Shown piece by piece: positions 741 through 31,361 of a DNA stretch of 31,361 bases. The stretch lies in the IMG/VR virus record IMGVR_UViG_3300045107_000275, positions 1 to 31,361 of that record. One strand, 5' to 3'. The stretch is from a virus. The notes under the pieces are model-generated. The model made no database searches, was not told the DNA's origin, and saw only the letters and a list, made by a program, of their open reading frames with translations. Position 1 is the stretch's first letter; the number at the start of each line of letters is the position of its first letter. A program made the translations under genes and the position numbers.

Positions 741-944
741 ATGACGCCGTTCCTCGTGTATTATGATGAGTCCGTAATGAGTGGGTTCCGGCTCAAAGCA
801 GAGCTAACGGGGCATTCTCTCGCCTATCATTTCCGACTGGCCGCCCAGCAATATCTCAGCGGTTCCAACCTAGCGGCGGGCATCCTCCTCAGCGGTGGCG
901 GAGTGTGCTCGGGGTCCGTTCTTTCCATTCAAATTGGGGGTTAA
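741..944 (+). CDS. possible small leader protein
   Basis: A 67-residue frame between the promoter candidate and the first glycosyltransferase. It ends 2 bases before the preferred GTG start of that gene, and the Shine-Dalgarno of the next gene lies in its last codons, which would allow coupling. The C-terminal half is hydrophobic and Gly/Ser-rich (LAAGILLSGGG), perhaps a membrane-prone segment. The ribosome site in front of it is weak. I do not recognise it, and it could be a chance frame in a leader. Confidence 0.4.
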   Translation: MTPFLVYYDESVMSGFRLKAELTGHSLAYHFRLAAQQYLSGSNLAAGILLSGGGVCSGSVLSIQIGG

Positions 945-946
945 TT

Positions 947-1654
947 GTGTCCGCCCCTTCATGGGAGATCCGCGAGGCCAATCAAGTCCTCGTCGGCATC
1001 CTGCATACCGAGATCACGACGCTGGCATGGTCCTTCGGCGTCCGCGAGCTTATTATTCCGGGCCGTAATGACCTGCGGAAATTCTATCCCTTCTTGCCGA
1101 TTGCTGGCCAACCCTATGACATGGCTCGCAACAACTGCTGCCAGCGAGCGTTGGATTTGGGTTGCAGCCACGTATTCTTTCTGGACTCGGATGTTGTCTG
1201 TCCGCCGGATACGATCCTCCGGCTGATGGCCCACAACCAGCCCTTTATCTCCGGCGTCTATCATCGTCGCAGTCCGCCGATTGGCGTGCCGGTGATGCTG
1301 CGGGATGGGCAGTACATCCAGAACTATCCGATCCCCGCCGTTATTCCTGTTGATTTGGTTGGGGCGGGCTGCCTGTTGCTCCGGCGGGATTTCTTGGAGA
1401 AGATTCCACCGCAACGGCCCGGCTCCCGCTGGTTCGATTGGCGGGTGAATCTGCTCGGCTGGCCCGGCGTGGATCAGGCTCGCTGTAAGAGTGAAGACTA
1501 CTCGCTGTGTGAGTGGGCGAAGGAACATGGCTGGCAGCCGATGGTGGATACTTCGATTAGCTGCCGTCATATCGGAAATTCTGAAAGTAGACTGAAGATT
1601 GAAAATGGAGTCCCCGTTGGGCCTGAGTATCGACCATTGGAGACTTTAGTATGA
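947..1654 (+). CDS. GT-A fold glycosyltransferase (family 2-like)
   Basis: A 235-residue glycosyltransferase predicted to move a sugar from a nucleotide donor. The DxD metal/nucleotide motif is in HVFFLDSDVVCP (Asp80 and Asp82), preceded by a nucleotide-binding type N-terminus. Downstream are GVYHRR and a GAGCLLLRRD segment, as in small GT-A enzymes found in phage and metagenomic sugar clusters. I chose GTG 947 because GGGGG lies 6 bases upstream; GTG 905 is an alternative. The last 30 codons are AT-rich in codon choice and are present a second time, recoded, after the HNH gene at 1651 (relic 2148-2240). The working 3' end therefore seems to be a replacement brought in with the endonuclease. 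Its stop overlaps the HNH start (ATGA). Confidence 0.85.
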   Translation: MSAPSWEIREANQVLVGILHTEITTLAWSFGVRELIIPGRNDLRKFYPFLPIAGQPYDMARNNCCQRALDLGCSHVFFLDSDVVCPPDTILRLMAHNQPFISGVYHRRSPPIGVPVMLRDGQYIQNYPIPAVIPVDLVGAGCLLLRRDFLEKIPPQRPGSRWFDWRVNLLGWPGVDQARCKSEDYSLCEWAKEHGWQPMVDTSISCRHIGNSESRLKIENGVPVGPEYRPLETLV

Positions 1655-2147: not shown

Positions 2148-2240
2148 TGCCGGCACATTGGAGCGAGCGAGTCTCGGCTGAAGGTGGAGAATGGCGTACC
2201 GATTGGTCCTGAGTATCGCCCGTTGGAGACGTTGGGATGA
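2148..2240 (+). pseudogene. stranded relic of the GT-A gene 3' end
   Basis: Thirty codons and a stop in one frame, with no start of their own, match the last 30 codons of the glycosyltransferase at 947-1654. Twenty-six of 30 residues are identical (for example CRHIG, SESRLK, GPEYRPLETL), while 27 of 93 bases differ and most changed codons are synonymous. The TGA overlaps the ATG of the next gene (ATGA at 2237-2240). The enzyme therefore probably once ran directly into that gene, and the HNH cassette inserted upstream of this point. Its GC-rich codon choice fits the local background, suggesting this is the original end. Confidence 0.85.
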
Positions 2241-11640: not shown

Positions 11641-13148
11641 TCTCGTTAATTTGCTGCACCTATCGCCCCGGTGGCATCGACTTACTGGCTCGCTCCTTCG
11701 TCGGGATGGCGGACAAGGATTACGAGTTAATCGTAGTCGATGATTGTCCCGGCCGCGTGGAGCGGGGCCTTGTGCCCAAGTATCTGCTGGAACAGGGCAT
11801 CAAGCTGCGCTGGTACGGAAAGTCAAAGGACAAAAGCTACCCCGAAGCGAAGGGTGGTTTGTGCAACGCGTGGAATACGGCCCTTGCTTTTGTCACCAAG
11901 CCCCTGACGGTTTGGGTTAGCGACTACACAATACTGCCGCCAAACTGGTATGACCAATGGACGCGAGTGGTCGATATGTACCCGCCGCGAACATTGATTA
12001 GCGGCTCGGCGATCATGTACGACTGCCCCAAGCCGGGGATTGTCGGCGATATCGAGAGCAATTTGGATTGGTCGAAAGCATGTCCTCGCTTTCCGTGGGT
12101 GCCCCGTGAGTTCGAGACTTTTTACGCCATGATCCCCACGCCGTTCTGGGAGGCAATTAATGGCGTCGATGAACGAGCCGATCATTGCCATTGCTGGCCG
12201 GTTAGCAGCAAGATTGCTCAAGCCAAAATCCTGGGTTATCGACTCGCTATTGAACCGGACGTTTGCTGCCATATGATCGACCATCGCTCATGGGACAGCC
12301 CGGCGGAGAAGGCCCCAGCGGGTTGCGGCGGTGAGGGGTTGTGGCGGATTACGCATATCCAGTCCGTCCCCGAGGAACCCAAATGGGTAGTGCCATCGTC
12401 GAACCCATTCAACCTACGGGAAGTCCGCTACGGCCCGAGCCGGTCGTTCTCCGAATTCGTCAACTATGATTTCCCGCCGGAGCACGATGCTCTATTCCGC
12501 GAGATGCTGGCCGATGACGTACGTTGCCGTCGCTCCTGCCAGTTCCAACGGGACGACAATGGGGCCTACCAGCTCAAGGTGCCGCCGTCGCCGTTGCACT
12601 GGAGCCGGCAGTGCGAATGGCCGTGGGCGGTGTTGAATGCCGAACTGACGGGAAGTGAGGACTGCCTGGATATTGGCGGTGGGTGGGCCTGCGTTAAATA
12701 CGCGATTGCTCGCCGATGCAATACTTTGTTGTGCATCGATACGATGGACGAGGCAATTGAAGCAAGTCGGCAGACGACGGGGGAACTTGGATTCAAGAAC
12801 ATCGGATCGATGAAGGCTGATGCTCGTGCCATCCCATTCGCCGATAATTATTTCGACCGCGTCTTTTGCCTCAGTGTGCTGGAGCATATCCCCGGCGAGC
12901 ATTTGACGTGTGTGCAGGAAATCCTTCGCGTTCTCAAGCCCGGCGGCATCGCCTTGATTACGCTGGACGTGCTGTTCGATGGCGAGCGGTCGGGGCATTT
13001 CTACGTCACACAGGAGATGGCGGGGCAGATTCTGGGGGCGTTGGGGATGGGCCGGCCCCGCAATACCTGTCGCAATGGGGCCGATCTGGAAGGGATGAAG
13101 CTAACTGTGCTCATGATCAAATTCGTCAAGCCATTGGAGGGGTTATGA
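11637..13148 (+). CDS. GT2 glycosyltransferase fused to a SAM methyltransferase
   Basis: A 503-residue two-domain protein. Residues 1-230 are GT-A-like: VISLICCTYRPGG, then the nucleotide-binding LIVVDDCPGR, then WVSDYTILPPNWY in place of a classic DxD. From about residue 340 a class I methyltransferase follows: CLDIGGGWACVKYAIA (SAM motif I), CIDTMDEAIEA (motif II), and VFCLSVLEHIPGEHL with ILRVLKPGG. The enzyme may add a sugar and methylate the product or a neighbouring residue, perhaps as a chain-capping step. I chose GTG 11637 because GGAGGGG lies 7 bases upstream and it overlaps the prior stop. Both halves are recognisable; the acceptor is unknown. Confidence 0.85.
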   Translation: MISLICCTYRPGGIDLLARSFVGMADKDYELIVVDDCPGRVERGLVPKYLLEQGIKLRWYGKSKDKSYPEAKGGLCNAWNTALAFVTKPLTVWVSDYTILPPNWYDQWTRVVDMYPPRTLISGSAIMYDCPKPGIVGDIESNLDWSKACPRFPWVPREFETFYAMIPTPFWEAINGVDERADHCHCWPVSSKIAQAKILGYRLAIEPDVCCHMIDHRSWDSPAEKAPAGCGGEGLWRITHIQSVPEEPKWVVPSSNPFNLREVRYGPSRSFSEFVNYDFPPEHDALFREMLADDVRCRRSCQFQRDDNGAYQLKVPPSPLHWSRQCEWPWAVLNAELTGSEDCLDIGGGWACVKYAIARRCNTLLCIDTMDEAIEASRQTTGELGFKNIGSMKADARAIPFADNYFDRVFCLSVLEHIPGEHLTCVQEILRVLKPGGIALITLDVLFDGERSGHFYVTQEMAGQILGALGMGRPRNTCRNGADLEGMKLTVLMIKFVKPLEGL

Positions 13149-13297
13149 CAATCATTTTTGAATTTTACGGCGGGGAGTTGGATAGCTTATGTCGCTTGCT
13201 AACAGATCCGCCTTTGTTATTCGTTCGCCTGGAAAATAATCAGCGACTGATTTCCAAATGGAATCCTTCCTCGGGCTTTTACGAGATCACACAATGA
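13145..13297 (+). CDS. tiny protein between two methyltransferase genes
   Basis: A 50-residue frame starting at the ATG overlapping the previous stop (ATGA) and ending in an ATGA overlap with the next enzyme. The sequence (IIFEFYGGELDSLCRLL ... RLISKWNPSSGFYEITQ) is AT-richer than its neighbours and looks like a small beta-alpha-beta domain. The perfect overlap at both ends argues that it is translated. Function unknown. Confidence 0.6.
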   Translation: MTIIFEFYGGELDSLCRLLTDPPLLFVRLENNQRLISKWNPSSGFYEITQ

Positions 13298-15192
13298 TTA
13301 CGATCAATGCACCAGCGGGCTACAAGATTCTCGAACTCGGCTGCGGGTCCGCTCGTAACCCTGCCACGACGGTCGGAGTCGATTTCCGCCCCGGCCCCGG
13401 CGTGGATTTTACCGCCGACCTGACCAAGCCGGACTGGCCCATCGCGTCGGCTGAGTTTGACGCCGTGCTGGCCGTCTTCGTCCTGGAGCATATCCCCTAC
13501 CCGCTCGTCCCACAATTCCTCGCGGAATGCCGGCGGGTACTAAAGCCGGACGGTCGGCTAATTGTGATCGTGCCGAACACCGAAGCCCAGCTCAAATGGA
13601 TTCTGGTTCACCCCGACGGTTGGGACGGCAAGGATTTGTTTACGTCGGCTTCGTGCAAGCTGTTCGGCGATCAGGAGCATGGCAAGCGGCAGGGGGACGA
13701 CAACCCCGGCGTAGATTCACACAAGGCGTATTTCAGCCCAGCAATCGCCGTGCAGTTGTTCAATGCCGCCGGCTTCGAGCAGGTCGTTACGAGCCCCTAC
13801 GGTGAGCGGGCGACGGATTTGGCGATTGAGGCGACGCGGCCGATGGAGGATAAGCGAGAGGCGACTGTGGAAATCCCTGATTTGGGTGAAGTAAAATCGA
13901 CTTGGGAGCGGAAATTGGTGGGGGTTACTCAGGAAGGGAATTTGGTAGAGCAGACGAAAGCGGGCTTGGTAATTATTGAATCAATGAAAATCCCTGCTGC
14001 TCCTTACGAACCAGCGAAGATTTTCAACCGGCAGTATTTCGACTTCGGCGGCCCCGGCTACCCGCATGGCTATCTGGACGGCCCGCACAATGAACTGGTT
14101 GCTCGGCAGGTGTTGCAACGGCATCCCAAGAGCGTGCTGGAGCTGGGCTGCGGGCGAGGGTACGTGCTCAAGCGGTTGCAGGACGTGGGGCTGTTCGCGA
14201 TGGGGTTGGACGTATCCCGCCATTGTTCCCTAACCCGTGTTTGTGGTGAATTGTGGGAGTTTGACGTATGCTCTACCCCTTGGGAATTGCGAAGTCGGAG
14301 TACGAATGATCCTGACGTGGGATTCGATCTATGTCTCTCCGTTGCCTTCTTTGAGCACGTCCCCGAGGACCGGCTGCCGGATTTGATCGCCGAGATGCGG
14401 CGGGTCTGCCAGCGGGGCCTGCACGGCATCTCCTTCGCCGCCAACGGCCACGACCCGACCCAGGTGACGATCCGCCCCCGCAGCTGGTGGAAGGAGCGGC
14501 TGCCGGAGGGTCATGAAGTCCTGGACATCAACGAACTCCGTTCGGGCAAGCTGCCGCCGGAGTATTGGCGGTCAGCTGGGGATCAGGTCAAACTGAATCT
14601 GGGCTGTCACCTGACCGCCTTCGCTCACGGTTGGACCAACATCGACGCTCTGGACCTGTCAAAGTACATGCAGGCCAATGGCTATACCTTCCAACAGCGG
14701 GATTTGCGACAGGGATTGATTCAGAAGACGGGGATGGTTGATGCTGTTTTCCTGCACCACTGTCTGGAGCACTTCGACTACTCGGAGGGTTTGAGCCTAC
14801 TTCGCGACATTCGCCGAGTACTGCGGCCGGAGACGGGGTGTTTGCGGGTAGTTGTTCCGAATGCTGAATTTTTGCAACGGTGCTATACCCGGCCGTCGGA
14901 AGAACTGATGCCGCAATTGAAAGATTTTGACGAGATGAACGGCGGCTGTGCGGCGGCCAAGACGCCGATGGCCAAGCTGCACGCTCTGCTGCAAGGTGGC
15001 GATCATCGGGCTTTCTACGACGCCGAGACGTTGCAGGGGATGTTGGCCGAGGCGGGATTCGAGTCTTGCCAAACCGAGTTCCGGCGAGCCTCGTTCAACC
15101 GTACCGGCCTGCATGACATGCTCAAAGAAGTGATCGAGATGGACTACGGCGGTACGTCGCTGTTCGTGGACGCAATTCCGAGGGTAGGATAA
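13294..15192 (+). CDS. triple-domain SAM-dependent methyltransferase
   Basis: A 632-residue protein containing three successive class I methyltransferase domains. Domain 1 (about 10-150) has YKILELGCGS and AVFVLEHIP...RRVLKPDG. Domain 2 (about 275-390) has SVLELGCGRG and SVAFFEHVPEDRL...MRRVCQRG. Domain 3 (about 430-620) has KLNLGCHL and LHHCLEHFDYSEGL...RRVLRPETG. Domains 1 and 2 keep the ExGCGxG-type SAM loop; in domain 3 the loop is shortened, so it may be degenerate or belong to a different subfamily. It probably methylates a surface glycan at several positions. The ATG at 13294 overlaps the preceding stop. An AT-rich patch (about 14220-14340) lies inside domain 2. Confidence 0.87.
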   Translation: MITINAPAGYKILELGCGSARNPATTVGVDFRPGPGVDFTADLTKPDWPIASAEFDAVLAVFVLEHIPYPLVPQFLAECRRVLKPDGRLIVIVPNTEAQLKWILVHPDGWDGKDLFTSASCKLFGDQEHGKRQGDDNPGVDSHKAYFSPAIAVQLFNAAGFEQVVTSPYGERATDLAIEATRPMEDKREATVEIPDLGEVKSTWERKLVGVTQEGNLVEQTKAGLVIIESMKIPAAPYEPAKIFNRQYFDFGGPGYPHGYLDGPHNELVARQVLQRHPKSVLELGCGRGYVLKRLQDVGLFAMGLDVSRHCSLTRVCGELWEFDVCSTPWELRSRSTNDPDVGFDLCLSVAFFEHVPEDRLPDLIAEMRRVCQRGLHGISFAANGHDPTQVTIRPRSWWKERLPEGHEVLDINELRSGKLPPEYWRSAGDQVKLNLGCHLTAFAHGWTNIDALDLSKYMQANGYTFQQRDLRQGLIQKTGMVDAVFLHHCLEHFDYSEGLSLLRDIRRVLRPETGCLRVVVPNAEFLQRCYTRPSEELMPQLKDFDEMNGGCAAAKTPMAKLHALLQGGDHRAFYDAETLQGMLAEAGFESCQTEFRRASFNRTGLHDMLKEVIEMDYGGTSLFVDAIPRVG

Positions 15193-24748: not shown

Positions 24749-24760
24749 GGGAGTTTGCCG

Positions 24761-25147
24761 ATGCCAATGAACCGCCAGAACCAGCGATATTTCTACCGCA
24801 AACTTTATGCAGGGTGGCTAGATACGATAACAATCCAGAAGCGGGCGAACGATCAGAATATGGGGCAGGTAACTACGCTCACCGCGTTTGAGTGCCGTGA
24901 AAAAAAGATTCACCACTCCGGCGAGCCCCTGAGGGGGACAGCAGCAGCGGGAGACCGAACAGTCTGGCAAATCCCTCGCGTGGAAATGGATCGGTTGGGC
25001 ATCACCGAATTCAATGCCTTGGATCGGATTATCGGTCCTGATGGACAAACGTGGCAGATTGAAGCGAATGATGGCGAAGTGACGATCCAGTTGGGAAAGG
25101 ACTACTGTAACTTGTCATGCCGACGAGTGCCGGGAACGGGTTCTTAA
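24761..25147 (+). CDS. head closure or head-tail adaptor protein
   Basis: A 128-residue beta-rich protein. The segment RIIGPDGQTWQIEANDGEVTI resembles strands of small head-tail joining proteins. AAGGGAG lies 7 bases before ATG 24761, which I prefer over a TTG 6 bases earlier. It directly abuts the tube-like gene after it. Position after the connector and before the tube genes is the main evidence, so closure versus tail terminator cannot be told apart. Confidence 0.7.
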   Translation: MPMNRQNQRYFYRKLYAGWLDTITIQKRANDQNMGQVTTLTAFECREKKIHHSGEPLRGTAAAGDRTVWQIPRVEMDRLGITEFNALDRIIGPDGQTWQIEANDGEVTIQLGKDYCNLSCRRVPGTGS

Positions 25148-25714
25148 ATGGGCGTGGACTTTCAGACATTTGGCGAAGCTTTAGTCCAGGTCGAAGGGGG
25201 CTCGATCACCCTCATCGAGTTGGGCTATTGTAGTGAACCTGTCCATATCGAGCCTCGCTTCGCTTACAAGGACGTGCCCACGGACGACTTCCCGATTGTG
25301 CCGTCCAATCGACTGTGGATGTTGGCCGAAACCAAAATCACGATGACGTTGGTCTACTATGATCCGACTGCCCTAGAAGCAGTAATTCTCGCGTCAATGG
25401 GTGGCGGCAATGCTCAGGGGGATACGTTGACGATGGCTGGGGCGGGGACGCCGATGGGAGTGGGGATTTTAGGCAGCAGTGATAATCCGTTAATGACCTT
25501 GACCATCAGCAGTAATAACGGGCTGGAACAACCGTATATTTTCGATGCCTGTCATCTGGCGGAAATGCCGGTACGTATCCCGATTGGTGTGGAGCGGAGT
25601 TTGGTGCAATTGACGTGGAGCAGCATCCCGTATTTCAACAGCCCCTATGGTGGTCAGGGTAGCGTGGAGTTGATCTCAGCCAACTCGATTCTCTGGCGGC
25701 GAGGGACGACCTAA
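25148..25714 (+). CDS. tail tube-like protein, first paralogue
   Basis: A 188-residue beta-rich protein that starts directly after the preceding stop. Motifs shared with the next gene are FGEALVQVEGG, IELGYCSEP, a central TLVYYDPTALEAVI and a C-terminal FDACHLAEMPVRIPIGVERSLVQL. The alternating strands and size suit a tail tube or tube-terminator subunit. The pair suggests one forms the tube and the other a related ring. Which is which is unknown. Confidence 0.75.
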   Translation: MGVDFQTFGEALVQVEGGSITLIELGYCSEPVHIEPRFAYKDVPTDDFPIVPSNRLWMLAETKITMTLVYYDPTALEAVILASMGGGNAQGDTLTMAGAGTPMGVGILGSSDNPLMTLTISSNNGLEQPYIFDACHLAEMPVRIPIGVERSLVQLTWSSIPYFNSPYGGQGSVELISANSILWRRGTT

Positions 25715-25715
25715 C

Positions 25716-26264
25716 ATGGCGGTTGATCTTTTTACAGCCGGCGAGGTTTTGGTGCTGGTCAAAGGCGCCGCCGGCTCGGCAATTGCTGGTGTCCAGCAGC
25801 TGGGTTACTGCGAGTCGTCGCCAACCTGGAATCCGGTTTATGAAAATCTTGATGTCATCATCAATGCCTACGGTCAGACGCCGGCTGAAGTACAGACGAT
25901 GGGTAAGACAGCTACGCTGAGCATTCCGCTAGTCTATTTCGATCCGGCGATTCTCGATGCCCTGTGCTCCGAATCGTCGGCTGGGGCAGGCTCGCCGGGA
26001 GCAAATTCCTACGCAGGTAAGCGAATGGGTGGTGGCGGGGCGCTTTACTCCTCAACCTGCCACTTCTTTTCCGTTTGCTTTACCAGTCCAGTCGCGGGCA
26101 AGCCTTTTACGTTCCTGGCCTGTCATCTGGTAGGCCAGCCGATCAATTTCCCCGTAGGAGCGGAGCGGTCCGTGGTGCAAGTCAATTTGCGAGCAATCAG
26201 TTACAGTCCGACGCCGACGAGCCTTGCAGGGGTAGTGTGTTGGAACAACAGTTTACTTACATGA
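25716..26264 (+). CDS. tail tube-like protein, second paralogue
   Basis: A 182-residue protein clearly related to its upstream neighbour, in the same order: FTAGEVLVLVKG, QLGYCESSP, LVYFDPAILDAL, FLACHLVGQPINFPVGAERSVVQV. It differs in a Gly-rich central insertion (AGSPGANSYAG). It begins 1 base after the previous stop, so the two form a recent tandem duplication that has diverged considerably. It lies immediately before the G/GT chaperone gene, where the major tail tube gene usually sits, which slightly favours this copy as the main tube. Confidence 0.75.
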   Translation: MAVDLFTAGEVLVLVKGAAGSAIAGVQQLGYCESSPTWNPVYENLDVIINAYGQTPAEVQTMGKTATLSIPLVYFDPAILDALCSESSAGAGSPGANSYAGKRMGGGGALYSSTCHFFSVCFTSPVAGKPFTFLACHLVGQPINFPVGAERSVVQVNLRAISYSPTPTSLAGVVCWNNSLLT

Positions 26265-28815: not shown

Positions 28816-29490
28816 ATGGCCGAGCCATTTGACGAAGCACTCAACGAGGAAGTCCAAGTACAAAACGGAACGGCGGAAGCCGTCGTCCAGTTCGGCGATG
28901 TTAGTATTGATTCGGCCGATGCTCTTTATGAAGTAGACGATACGGGCATCTGGACGGATTACTACGTCGTCAATCATTACGAGAAGGACAAGCAAATCTG
29001 GATGCTGCCGGTTACCAGCCCCAGCGGCTTCGACGGCGATTCGGTCTCTTTCGTCCAGTTGGCCTCCCAAACGTTGCTGCTCATTTGTGACTGGACGGCG
29101 GAGAAGACCGGCGAGGCCCCGACGATTCCCAGTGAAGAGCCCAGCGATGATAATATGGTTCTGCTCGATGCCCACAAAGAACCGGGCATGAAGGAACTGG
29201 GGGCCGGCGGAGCCGAGGAGGACATTATCTATCGCCTTTCGGGGACGTACATCTACGGCTTTAAAAATCCCGATCTGGCGAGCATGTGCTTCCCCCAGCC
29301 GCCGTGGATGCAGCAGGGTGCCGGCGAGTGCGATATCTCCGAGAGTATCGAGCAAGAAGGCATCATGTGCTGTGAATCTGGTAGTAGTGACAGCAGTGAG
29401 GCATCGCCCGGTGATGCCGGCAGCCAGAATTCTCCGGCTCTGTCCGATGAAGGACTTGAAAGCAGGGGTGGGGATTTCAGCCAATCTTAG
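28816..29490 (+). CDS. hypothetical tail-module protein with Cys/Ser-rich end
   Basis: A 224-residue acidic protein. The first 110 residues look like a beta-rich domain (GIWTDYYVVNHYEKDKQIWMLP). The final 50 are Ser/Glu/Gly-rich with CC and isolated Cys (GIMCCESGSSDSSEASPG), probably disordered. It follows the tail protein by 3 bases, and a relic gene start follows after 11 bases. I do not recognise it; a small tail-tip or fibre accessory is plausible. Confidence 0.65.
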   Translation: MAEPFDEALNEEVQVQNGTAEAVVQFGDVSIDSADALYEVDDTGIWTDYYVVNHYEKDKQIWMLPVTSPSGFDGDSVSFVQLASQTLLLICDWTAEKTGEAPTIPSEEPSDDNMVLLDAHKEPGMKELGAGGAEEDIIYRLSGTYIYGFKNPDLASMCFPQPPWMQQGAGECDISESIEQEGIMCCESGSSDSSEASPGDAGSQNSPALSDEGLESRGGDFSQS

Positions 29491-29501
29491 ATAGGTGATT
29501 C

Positions 29502-29552
29502 ATGGCTATTGCATTCTATGGAAGTCCGGGCAATCTCTTCAATGTAAGATAA
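29502..29552 (+). pseudogene. stranded relic of the 5' end of the structural gene at 30202
   Basis: A good ribosome site (AGGTG) and ATG open MAIAFYGSPGNLFNV, then the frame ends at TAA 29550-29552. The intact gene at 30202 opens MAINFYGSPGSLFSV: 12 of 15 residues match while 16 of 45 bases differ. The HNH cassette follows directly. This is probably the original gene start, cut off by the insertion, while the cassette supplied a recoded start downstream. Confidence 0.85.
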
Positions 29553-29565
29553 TTTTTAGTAAAAT

Positions 29566-29600
29566 GAAAGGGGAGGCGATCACTACTCGCCTCTCCTTTC
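29566..29600 (+). terminator. strong hairpin in the HNH leader
   Basis: A 14-bp stem with a single wobble (29566-29579 with 29587-29600) and a 7-base loop. It is followed by CTAG rather than a T-run, though TTTC closes the stem. It may end read-through from the tail operon or limit endonuclease expression. Confidence 0.6.
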
Positions 29601-29608
29601 TAGGAAGC

Positions 29609-29626
29609 CTAGCTGAAAGGAGCTAG
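29609..29626 (+). promoter_or_regulatory. hairpin presenting the HNH ribosome binding site
   Basis: A perfect 6-bp stem (CTAGCT/AGCTAG) with the loop GAAAGG. The Shine-Dalgarno AAAGGAG (29616-29622) starts in the loop and runs into the stem, 10 bases before the ATG at 29633. Hairpins over ribosome sites are known to control phage T4 homing endonucleases, so this may restrain HNH translation. Confidence 0.55.
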
Positions 29627-29632
29627 AAATCC

Positions 29633-30202
29633 ATGTTTGATAAGTTATCTAGTCATTCAGTACATTACAAGAGTTTGGATTGCATTGGATATCCTTTGTA
29701 TCGGGTAGGGAACGATGGCTCCGTTTGGTCTAAATTTAATGTTGGCCACAATCCAAAACCCAACAGGCGAGATATCGCAAAAAATGGAGCGTGGAGAAAA
29801 TTAAATCCTTCCGTAAAAGGAAATGGTTGTTTGGTCGTCGTATTGCGAAATAATATTGGAAAGAAGCGGATGTTTCGGGTACACCGCCTTGTTTTAATGG
29901 CTTTTATTGGGCAATGCCCTGCAAATTTAGAGTGTTGTCATAACGATGGGGATTTCCGCAATAATAATTTGAGTAATCTGCGGTGGGATACAAGCAAATC
30001 AAATGGACAGGATATGGTACGCCACGGTACATCGCGGAGTGGCGAAAAATCTAATTTTGCTAAATGTTCTAATGAAGATATTGTCAAAATAAGACTCCTG
30101 CGAAGGAAAGGTCTGCTACTCCGGGAGATTCAAGAGCAAGTTCCCCTGTCGATGGGGATGATAAGCATGATTATCAATAGAAAAAACTGGAAACACATAT
30201 AA
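29633..30202 (+). CDS. HNH homing endonuclease, second copy of the family
   Basis: A 189-residue endonuclease with the same layout as the one at 1651. It has an N-terminal NUMOD4-like motif (IGYPLYRVGNDGSVWSKF), an HNH_3 core (FRVHRLVLMAFIGQCPANLE, catalytic His in CCHNDGD, Asn in RNNNLSNLRW), and a C-terminal DNA-binding helix-turn-helix (IVKIRLLRRKGLLLREIQEQ, MGMISMIINRKNW). It is AT-rich. Its own leader carries two hairpins. It sits between a truncated copy of a structural gene start and the intact gene, whose ATG overlaps its stop (TAATG at 30200-30204). The intact gene has no good ribosome site of its own and may depend on coupling to this gene. Confidence 0.9.
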   Translation: MFDKLSSHSVHYKSLDCIGYPLYRVGNDGSVWSKFNVGHNPKPNRRDIAKNGAWRKLNPSVKGNGCLVVVLRNNIGKKRMFRVHRLVLMAFIGQCPANLECCHNDGDFRNNNLSNLRWDTSKSNGQDMVRHGTSRSGEKSNFAKCSNEDIVKIRLLRRKGLLLREIQEQVPLSMGMISMIINRKNWKHI

Positions 30203-31361
30203 TGGCAATAAACTTCTACGGTTCTCCGGGCAGCTTGTTCTCGGTAACCGGCAAGCTTGGGCTTGTCCTCAAGCAGCTTCGTTCCTATCAGACGACGATG
30301 AACACGACGCTGACGGATACGACCAACGGCGTCACGGGGCAGCTCAATGCTCAGCCCGATATCCAGGCGGTCAACGGCGGCAACTACTTGGCGAATCTGT
30401 CGGCCCCGGAACCAGTAGCGACGACGATGCAAAATATTTGCGTCCAGTACTGGAACCGCGTGGTATTCCTGGACAATGCTCGTCGCAATCAGACCTTGCA
30501 GCAGGTCAATATCGTCAGTTCGATTCAACAAGTTATTACGCAGATGTTGGCACAAGGCCAGACGATCCAACAATGCACCGTGACGGCGACTCCCGGAGCA
30601 TTTATCGGTACGGGCGATGGCAGCATCAACGTCTCCGTTTACCGTCCTAGTGATGGCTACCAGCAGCAGAATCTGTTCGCCGAGAGTATCCAGGTACTCT
30701 GCTCAGCCGACAGTTATATTGGCAACGCGACGGCGGGCAACGAAACGTTCGCTGTTACCGGGCAAGGCAGCCAGACTGATTTCTACGCCTTTAACTGGCC
30801 GCTTGGTTCCAACGCTTCGATCAGTGTCAGTGCGATTGATGGCTACAGCAATAATGCCAATAACAATTTCCTGACGGGAGCGGGTTTCAACGCGGCAAGT
30901 TGGACGGGCACGCCGCCGACGGCTACGCTTAATCAATGGACGGTGGTAGCTGGAGCCTACGGAACAAATTTGGCGGAGGAAACGGGCGTTACCTTTGGTA
31001 GCAATGCCTGCCTGGCGATTATTGGCGATGGGACGACGAACTTCAATATTACGCAGACGTTCAACCTGTCCACGGGGACTCTGGGTACGCTCAGCCCCCT
31101 GACGCAATATAGCGTCTGTATCTTCATGCGGCGGGACGGCGTAGCGGCGGCCAATGGTACGCTGACAATCGACCTGATTGACGGCAGCAACAATATTATT
31201 CAGGATGCCGCCGGGGCGAATAACTCCTTTGCGGTGGACTTGACCGCTCTGACGACGAGCTTCGTCGCTCAGAAGGGGGTATTTCGGACCCCATTGATCA
31301 TGCCGTCCAGTTATAAAATTCGTCTGCGGTTGACAGGGACAGCTTTGACGGCCGGACGGAC
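30202..31361 (+). CDS. beta-rich tail/fibre structural protein (3' end outside window)
   Basis: The frame is open from ATG 30202 to the window edge, 386 full codons. The N-terminal 100 residues are helical (LGLVLKQLRSYQTTMNTTLTD, LQQVNIVSSIQQVITQML). The rest is Thr/Asn/Gly-rich beta structure, resembling a carbohydrate-binding sandwich near residues 225-385 (GAGFNAASWTG ... YKIRLRLTGTAL). This suggests a tail fibre or tip protein that binds surface sugars. Its first 15 codons exist in a second, recoded copy at 29502. The frame is in phase with 2-157 across the window ends. Confidence 0.75.
   Translation, partial: MAINFYGSPGSLFSVTGKLGLVLKQLRSYQTTMNTTLTDTTNGVTGQLNAQPDIQAVNGGNYLANLSAPEPVATTMQNICVQYWNRVVFLDNARRNQTLQQVNIVSSIQQVITQMLAQGQTIQQCTVTATPGAFIGTGDGSINVSVYRPSDGYQQQNLFAESIQVLCSADSYIGNATAGNETFAVTGQGSQTDFYAFNWPLGSNASISVSAIDGYSNNANNNFLTGAGFNAASWTGTPPTATLNQWTVVAGAYGTNLAEETGVTFGSNACLAIIGDGTTNFNITQTFNLSTGTLGTLSPLTQYSVCIFMRRDGVAAANGTLTIDLIDGSNNIIQDAAGANNSFAVDLTALTTSFVAQKGVFRTPLIMPSSYKIRLRLTGTALTAGR

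Follow-up and report, generated by a model that had tools for sequence, protein, structure and literature searches.

Free-standing HNH endonuclease genes beside recoded ends of the genes they interrupt: probable homing cassettes in phage genomes

The window analysed here is the whole 31,361 nucleotide stretch of IMG/VR virus record IMGVR_UViG_3300045107_000275. It holds two HNH_3 endonuclease genes, each with similar copies of one gene end on its two sides (Table 1). At the site near the right end of the window a stub opens with an ATG at 29502, runs through 15 codons (29502-29546) reading MAIAFYGSPGNLFNV, and closes after one arginine codon with a TAA at 29550-29552. The intact gene begins at an ATG at 30202 that has one base in common with the HNH stop codon (TAATG, 30200-30204), and its N-terminus reads MAINFYGSPGSLFSV. 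Between the stub and the intact 5' end 12 of 15 residues and 29 of 45 bases are identical, with 8 of the 16 differing bases located at third codon positions. A sequence-only reading of this DNA had described a ribosome site, 15 codons and a stop ahead of the HNH gene and an intact gene after it, with 12 matching residues and 16 differing bases; the layout proved exact and a recount returned the same figures. The BLOSUM62 score of the pair is 63, above the maximum of 53 among 2494 mismatched flank pairs. Random placement of 16 base substitutions would leave about 5.4 identical residues against the 12 observed (0 of 4000 simulations).

Table 1. Features of the two HNH_3 sites in the window, and HNH gene leaders at other loci.
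Feature	Position	Strand	Basis or remark
Glycosyltransferase-like gene body	905-1561	+	Pfam matches weak, below cut-off; phrog_1574
Recoded replacement 3' end, overlaps HNH start (ATGA)	1562-1654	+	Codon usage nuclease-like, log-ratio -10.1; G+C 0.45
HNH_3 endonuclease gene, 163 aa	1651-2142	+	PF13392 E 4.8e-16
Native 3' stub, stop overlapping ATG of next gene at 2237	2148-2240	+	Codon usage genome-like, log-ratio +10.35; G+C 0.60
Upstream structural gene, native left flank	28816-29490	+	Homologues directly precede tail gene in relatives lacking the HNH gene
RBS AGGTG, probably native RBS of invaded gene	29493-29497	+	Sequence
Stub: first 15 codons of invaded gene, AGA (R), TAA stop; probably native 5' end	29502-29552	+	Sequence; GNLFN is the consensus of uninserted relatives
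HNH leader, 80 bases	29553-29632	+	TAAAAT hexamer 29560-29565; 14-bp hairpin 29566-29600; second hairpin 29609-29626 around RBS; z -5.7
HNH_3 endonuclease gene, 189 aa, G+C 0.40	29633-30202	+	PF13392 E 4.6e-10, above cut-off; phrog_1492, phrog_59
Recoded replacement 5' end, 15 codons, ATG overlapping HNH stop	30202-30246	+	Sequence comparison
Invaded gene body, runs off record	30247-31361	+	43-53% identical homologues in L010, L016, L017, L018, L019, L025
HNH leader, L012	15615-15704
HNH leader, L019	15411-15502
HNH leader, L022	6335-6416
HNH leader, L164	2878-2961
HNH leader, L174	2689-2775
HNH leader, L120	2891-2976

The sequence-only reading had also set a replaced 3' end at 1651 against the replaced 5' end at 29502, and both layouts are seen in the sequence. 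In the mirror case the two end copies (1562-1654 and 2148-2240) are identical at 26 of 29 residues and 61 of 87 bases, and codon usage separates them cleanly, the intact end going with the nuclease and the stub with the genome. A related-locus search with the glycosyltransferase-like gene gave no relatives. Identity between the two HNH proteins is 37%, and both exceed the HNH_3 domain cut-off of 24.8 bits (39.4 and 58.6 bits). Phage HNH genes are often located within introns or inteins, and splicing could in principle remove the nuclease here. However, splicing would fuse the stub to the gene and double 15 codons, a stop codon terminates the stub, the intact gene carries a start codon of its own, and no Rfam family, introns included, was matched at gathering score anywhere in the window. 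Stub and gene are separate closed frames outside any self-splicing intron or intein, and we give practically no weight to splicing as an explanation.

Relatives of the phage were reached by an alignment of the capsid protein, which led to 23 loci with capsid identities of 61-80%. Related-locus searches with the tail protein, its upstream neighbour p27613 or a two-sequence HNH alignment found no relatives, and neither degenerate DNA patterns for both gene ends nor tblastn of the tail genes against isolate phages gave matches. Six of the capsid-linked loci (L010, L016, L017, L018, L019 and L025, including a pair, L017 and L018, identical over their overlap) carry a homologue of the upstream gene (28816-29490) followed by a homologue of the tail gene, with no HNH gene and no second copy. 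These are uninserted alleles of the 29502 site; their tail proteins are 43-53% identical to that of the window, and no close pair with and without the HNH gene was found at this site. An intact extra paralogue ahead of the HNH gene, or the lack of any uninserted allele, had been named by the sequence-only reading as grounds for doubt, and with six syntenic loci neither ground holds.

A third case is found in L023, where the stub (MARDFQVAGPTLVKVKGG) continues in frame into the HNH gene and the intact gene starts with MARDFQIAGPTLVKVRGG at the HNH stop. Because of this case HNH_3 loci were gathered and surveyed, similar peptides being sought in the DNA on both nuclease flanks of 134 distinct loci, with the 2494 mismatched flank pairs as controls. 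At 13 of the 134, both window cases counted, gene ends similar in protein and diverged in nucleotides were present on both sides, and all 13 exceeded every mismatched control. One assembly lies behind each case. The sequence of each was inspected and all four topologies are present, namely 5' ends in sense (window 29633, L023, L112, L124, L133, L199) or antisense orientation (L120, L164, L174) and 3' ends in sense (window 1651, L022, L253) or antisense orientation (L214). Most cases beyond 29502-30246 likewise replace a 5' end. The invaded genes vary and include a DUF5131 gene (L124), a uracil-DNA glycosylase gene (L133) and, by inspection only, the end of a Toprim-type primase gene (L253).

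Recoded ends also accompany two HNH enzymes of the phrog_374 type, one at L022 2448-3194 (40 of 46 residues and 101 of 138 bases identical) and one at L008 2943-3869, where the end is 7 codons long. Both enzymes have zinc-knuckle-like CGC motifs and no Pfam match. Among 20 public phage records the sole stub case was L274 (15 of 17 residues), itself metagenomic, and no cultured phage with a stub was found among those records. With 625 control genes no comparable case was present in the 16 matches scoring at least 54, which were re-fetched HNH loci, the L022 nuclease, tandem paralogues, low-complexity frames and a non-coding repeat in L044. This repeat (about 488-1007) consists of direct DNA repeats around a short, apparently non-coding region. 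No stub was found at the HNH genes of L012 and L019, the GIY-YIG gene of L020 or the LAGLIDADG genes of L014, L019 and L029. From the two window cases the sequence-only reading had proposed a common strategy by which related HNH genes replace gene ends, and the proposal has gained in strength, as the arrangement recurs at 11 further HNH_3 genes, at L274 and at the two phrog_374-type genes.

In every case the nuclease is contiguous with the intact end, and the stub is located beyond the nuclease, on the far side from the intact gene. In the sense 5' cases the nuclease ORF runs at its 3' end into the ATG of the intact gene, and in L214 there is a tail-to-tail overlap of the two stop codons. A stub might also be what remains of the first of two tandem gene copies after HNH insertion removed most of it. 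Such pairs do exist in this phage family (p25148, p25716 and relatives). However, the relatives are single-copy at the 29502 site, stubs end at the nuclease in every case, and the 3'-end and antisense versions would each require an equal coincidence, making a truncated paralogue very unlikely.

Because the copies flank the insertion as direct repeats, target-site duplication at insertion followed by drift might also be considered. However, with 11 cases pooled 181 residues are conserved, compared with 94 (maximum 110) when the observed base changes are placed at random, and the differences by codon position are 56, 30 and 132 (132 of 218 at third positions). Both copies have therefore diverged as coding sequence. 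With protein identity this far above the drift expectation, a drifted duplication is hardly credible; it is excluded for the case set and refuted for most single cases, L008 with its 7 codons being too short to tell.

In all 14 cases the G+C content of the intact, recoded end is below that of the 90 bases of gene body next to it (Wilcoxon p 0.0001), and in 12 of the 14 it is below that of the stub (p 0.002), a contrast to be read with the caveat that A+T-richness is in any case common at the 5' ends of genes. Mean G+C is 0.43 for the recoded end, close to the 0.47 of the nuclease itself, and 0.56 and 0.54 for the adjacent body and the stub. At 29502 the stub is the more A+T-rich copy (G+C 0.42, against 0.49 for the intact end), codon-usage log-ratios are +2.9 for the intact end and +0.5 for the stub, and neither measure tells the native copy from the recoded one. 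Because composition and codon usage fail to decide there, polarity is argued from architecture and from the relatives. The uninserted relatives have GNLFN in common at their N-termini, the stub has GNLFN as well and the intact window copy has GSLFS, and because of this common motif we favour the stub as the putative native end. For the L008 site, at which the window represents the allele without the insertion, stub and intact end match the uninserted allele at 18 and 16 of 30 bases respectively, which decides nothing.

Judging from sequence, it is highly probable that the feature is a homing cassette, consisting of a free-standing HNH gene and a recoded, protein-conserving copy of the end of the gene that it invades. 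Because a similar arrangement is found at many other genes, in this and in other phages, the design would be a recurrent natural one and not an accident. The nuclease would cut a cassette-free allele near the point corresponding to the end of the stub, and repair from a cassette-bearing genome would copy both the nuclease and the recoded end into the break. The recoded end would then complete the gene's own body, with the displaced native end left over as the stub. Recoding should make the rebuilt gene resistant to the enzyme and keep the end from offering repair a homologous short cut past the nuclease, and it would avoid a long direct repeat that might allow deletion of the cassette. A homologous gene in another phage is the probable source of the recoded ends.

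The same layout might be left behind by one-sided homing, in which an HNH gene located beside a gene X in a diverged donor cut X in the recipient, one end being repaired by homology within X and the other joined illegitimately. The stub would then be a by-product, and the nuclease and donor end would never have been built as a travelling unit. Consistent with this, stubless HNH genes stand immediately ahead of a gene in L012 and L019, the HNH gene overlaps the start of the next gene in several isolate phages, free-standing homing endonucleases of phages cause co-conversion of the sequence at their flanks (PMC2988022), and phage nuclease genes are found at the boundaries of genetic exchange (PMC10448857). 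However, the foreign composition ends with the recoded end and does not reach the gene body, and a one-sided scar is a model of origin with which later movement as a cassette is compatible. As such, we regard a mere scar as possible but rather doubtful, and one-sided homing from a diverged donor, which would leave such a scar, as a plausible origin of the cassette. Because of the stubless insertions in L012 and L019, the stub of a homing cassette may represent one extreme in a spectrum of insertion positions.

We also lean, with some reserve, towards the broader view that end-replacing nuclease cassettes are widespread mobile elements of phages that act as natural home-and-rescue drives. Several unrelated nuclease types would each have gained recoded gene ends, 5' or 3' and from 7 to about 85 codons long, on their own. 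These ends would both rescue the invaded gene and protect it from the enzyme, and would swap protein termini between phages.

Fungal mitochondrial mobile ORFs (mORFs), described in atp6 of Allomyces macrogynus and in atp6, atp9, cox2 and nad3 of Glomus sp., combine an endonuclease ORF with a foreign carboxy-terminal end (PMC3630166). As in the phage cases, an end diverged in nucleotides and conserved in protein rebuilds the invaded gene, and the native end is found beyond the ORF. However, the fungal elements are reported for 3' ends, mitochondria and LAGLIDADG or GIY-YIG enzymes (PMC3630166), whereas the present ones are found in phages, with HNH enzymes, at 5' and 3' ends and in sense and antisense orientation. 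A foreign end that rebuilds the gene with displacement of the native end is found at 1562-2240 and, for a 5' end, at 29502-30246, where the carboxy-terminal end is thus not the one replaced; the enzymes belong to HNH_3 here and to the phrog_374 HNH type in L008 and L022. T4-like phages, for which free-standing endonucleases, intronless homing with co-conversion and split genes are known, similarly carry free-standing HNH genes in or beside essential phage genes, yet their insertions lie between genes or split a gene into two working halves, with no recoded replacement end described (PMC2988022).

The synthetic home-and-rescue drive HomeR re-codes 22 or 27 residues past the cut site, to rebuild the target and prevent gene conversion (PMC7968924), and its recoded end resembles those described here, that of the mirror case being 29 codons long. 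However, HomeR is engineered, CRISPR-based and used in flies (PMC7968924); the parallel is one of logic only, with no shared ancestry. Lactococcal Skunavirus phages resemble the present phages in that free-standing HNH genes are numerous and spread over several genome positions, with no case inside an intron, and the passages of that report drawn on here make no mention of a duplicated or recoded gene end (PMC12724721). No report from phages of a nuclease with a recoded gene end was found in the literature covered, which excludes most subscription papers.

If the homing-cassette reading holds, a selfish nuclease can inhabit coding sequence without a splicing element, and in ordinary phage genomes. 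The predicted cut site of each enzyme would be the junction of stub and gene body, making the targets of uncharacterised HNH enzymes testable. The cassettes would also offer a route for the exchange of protein termini between phages, and would parallel a design reached independently by gene-drive engineers.

A leader similar to that of the 29633 gene is found at 11 HNH genes of different phages, this gene included (Table 1; also L128, L134, L159 and L230). It comprises a TAxAAT-like hexamer, a hairpin of about 9-16 pairs and variable sequence, mostly a CACAACC-like stretch, and an RBS that is often within a second hairpin. All 11 leaders fold better than shuffles (z -2.6 to -5.7). Hairpin counts gave no general separation of HNH leaders from control genes, the leader being limited to a subset, and no Rfam family matched the window leader. 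As a guess, the common leader may function as a promoter.

Several side observations were made in the related loci. A LAGLIDADG_3-type ORF separates the capsid gene from the one after it in L014 (6030-7019), L019 (11532-12422) and L029 (11570-12454), and L028 represents the empty allele of the L029 site. L012 has an intein-like insertion (12935-14098) in the homologue of window gene 24755-25147. The tandem paralogous genes 25148 and 25716 occupy 25148-26264 of the window, and the pair is retained in many relatives. Relatives of the HNH genes occur in Planctomycetota assemblies, which points weakly to Planctomycetota as the host. Among single phage records, that of L114 (137 kb) contains 15 HNH_3 genes and that of L129 (72 kb) contains 13.
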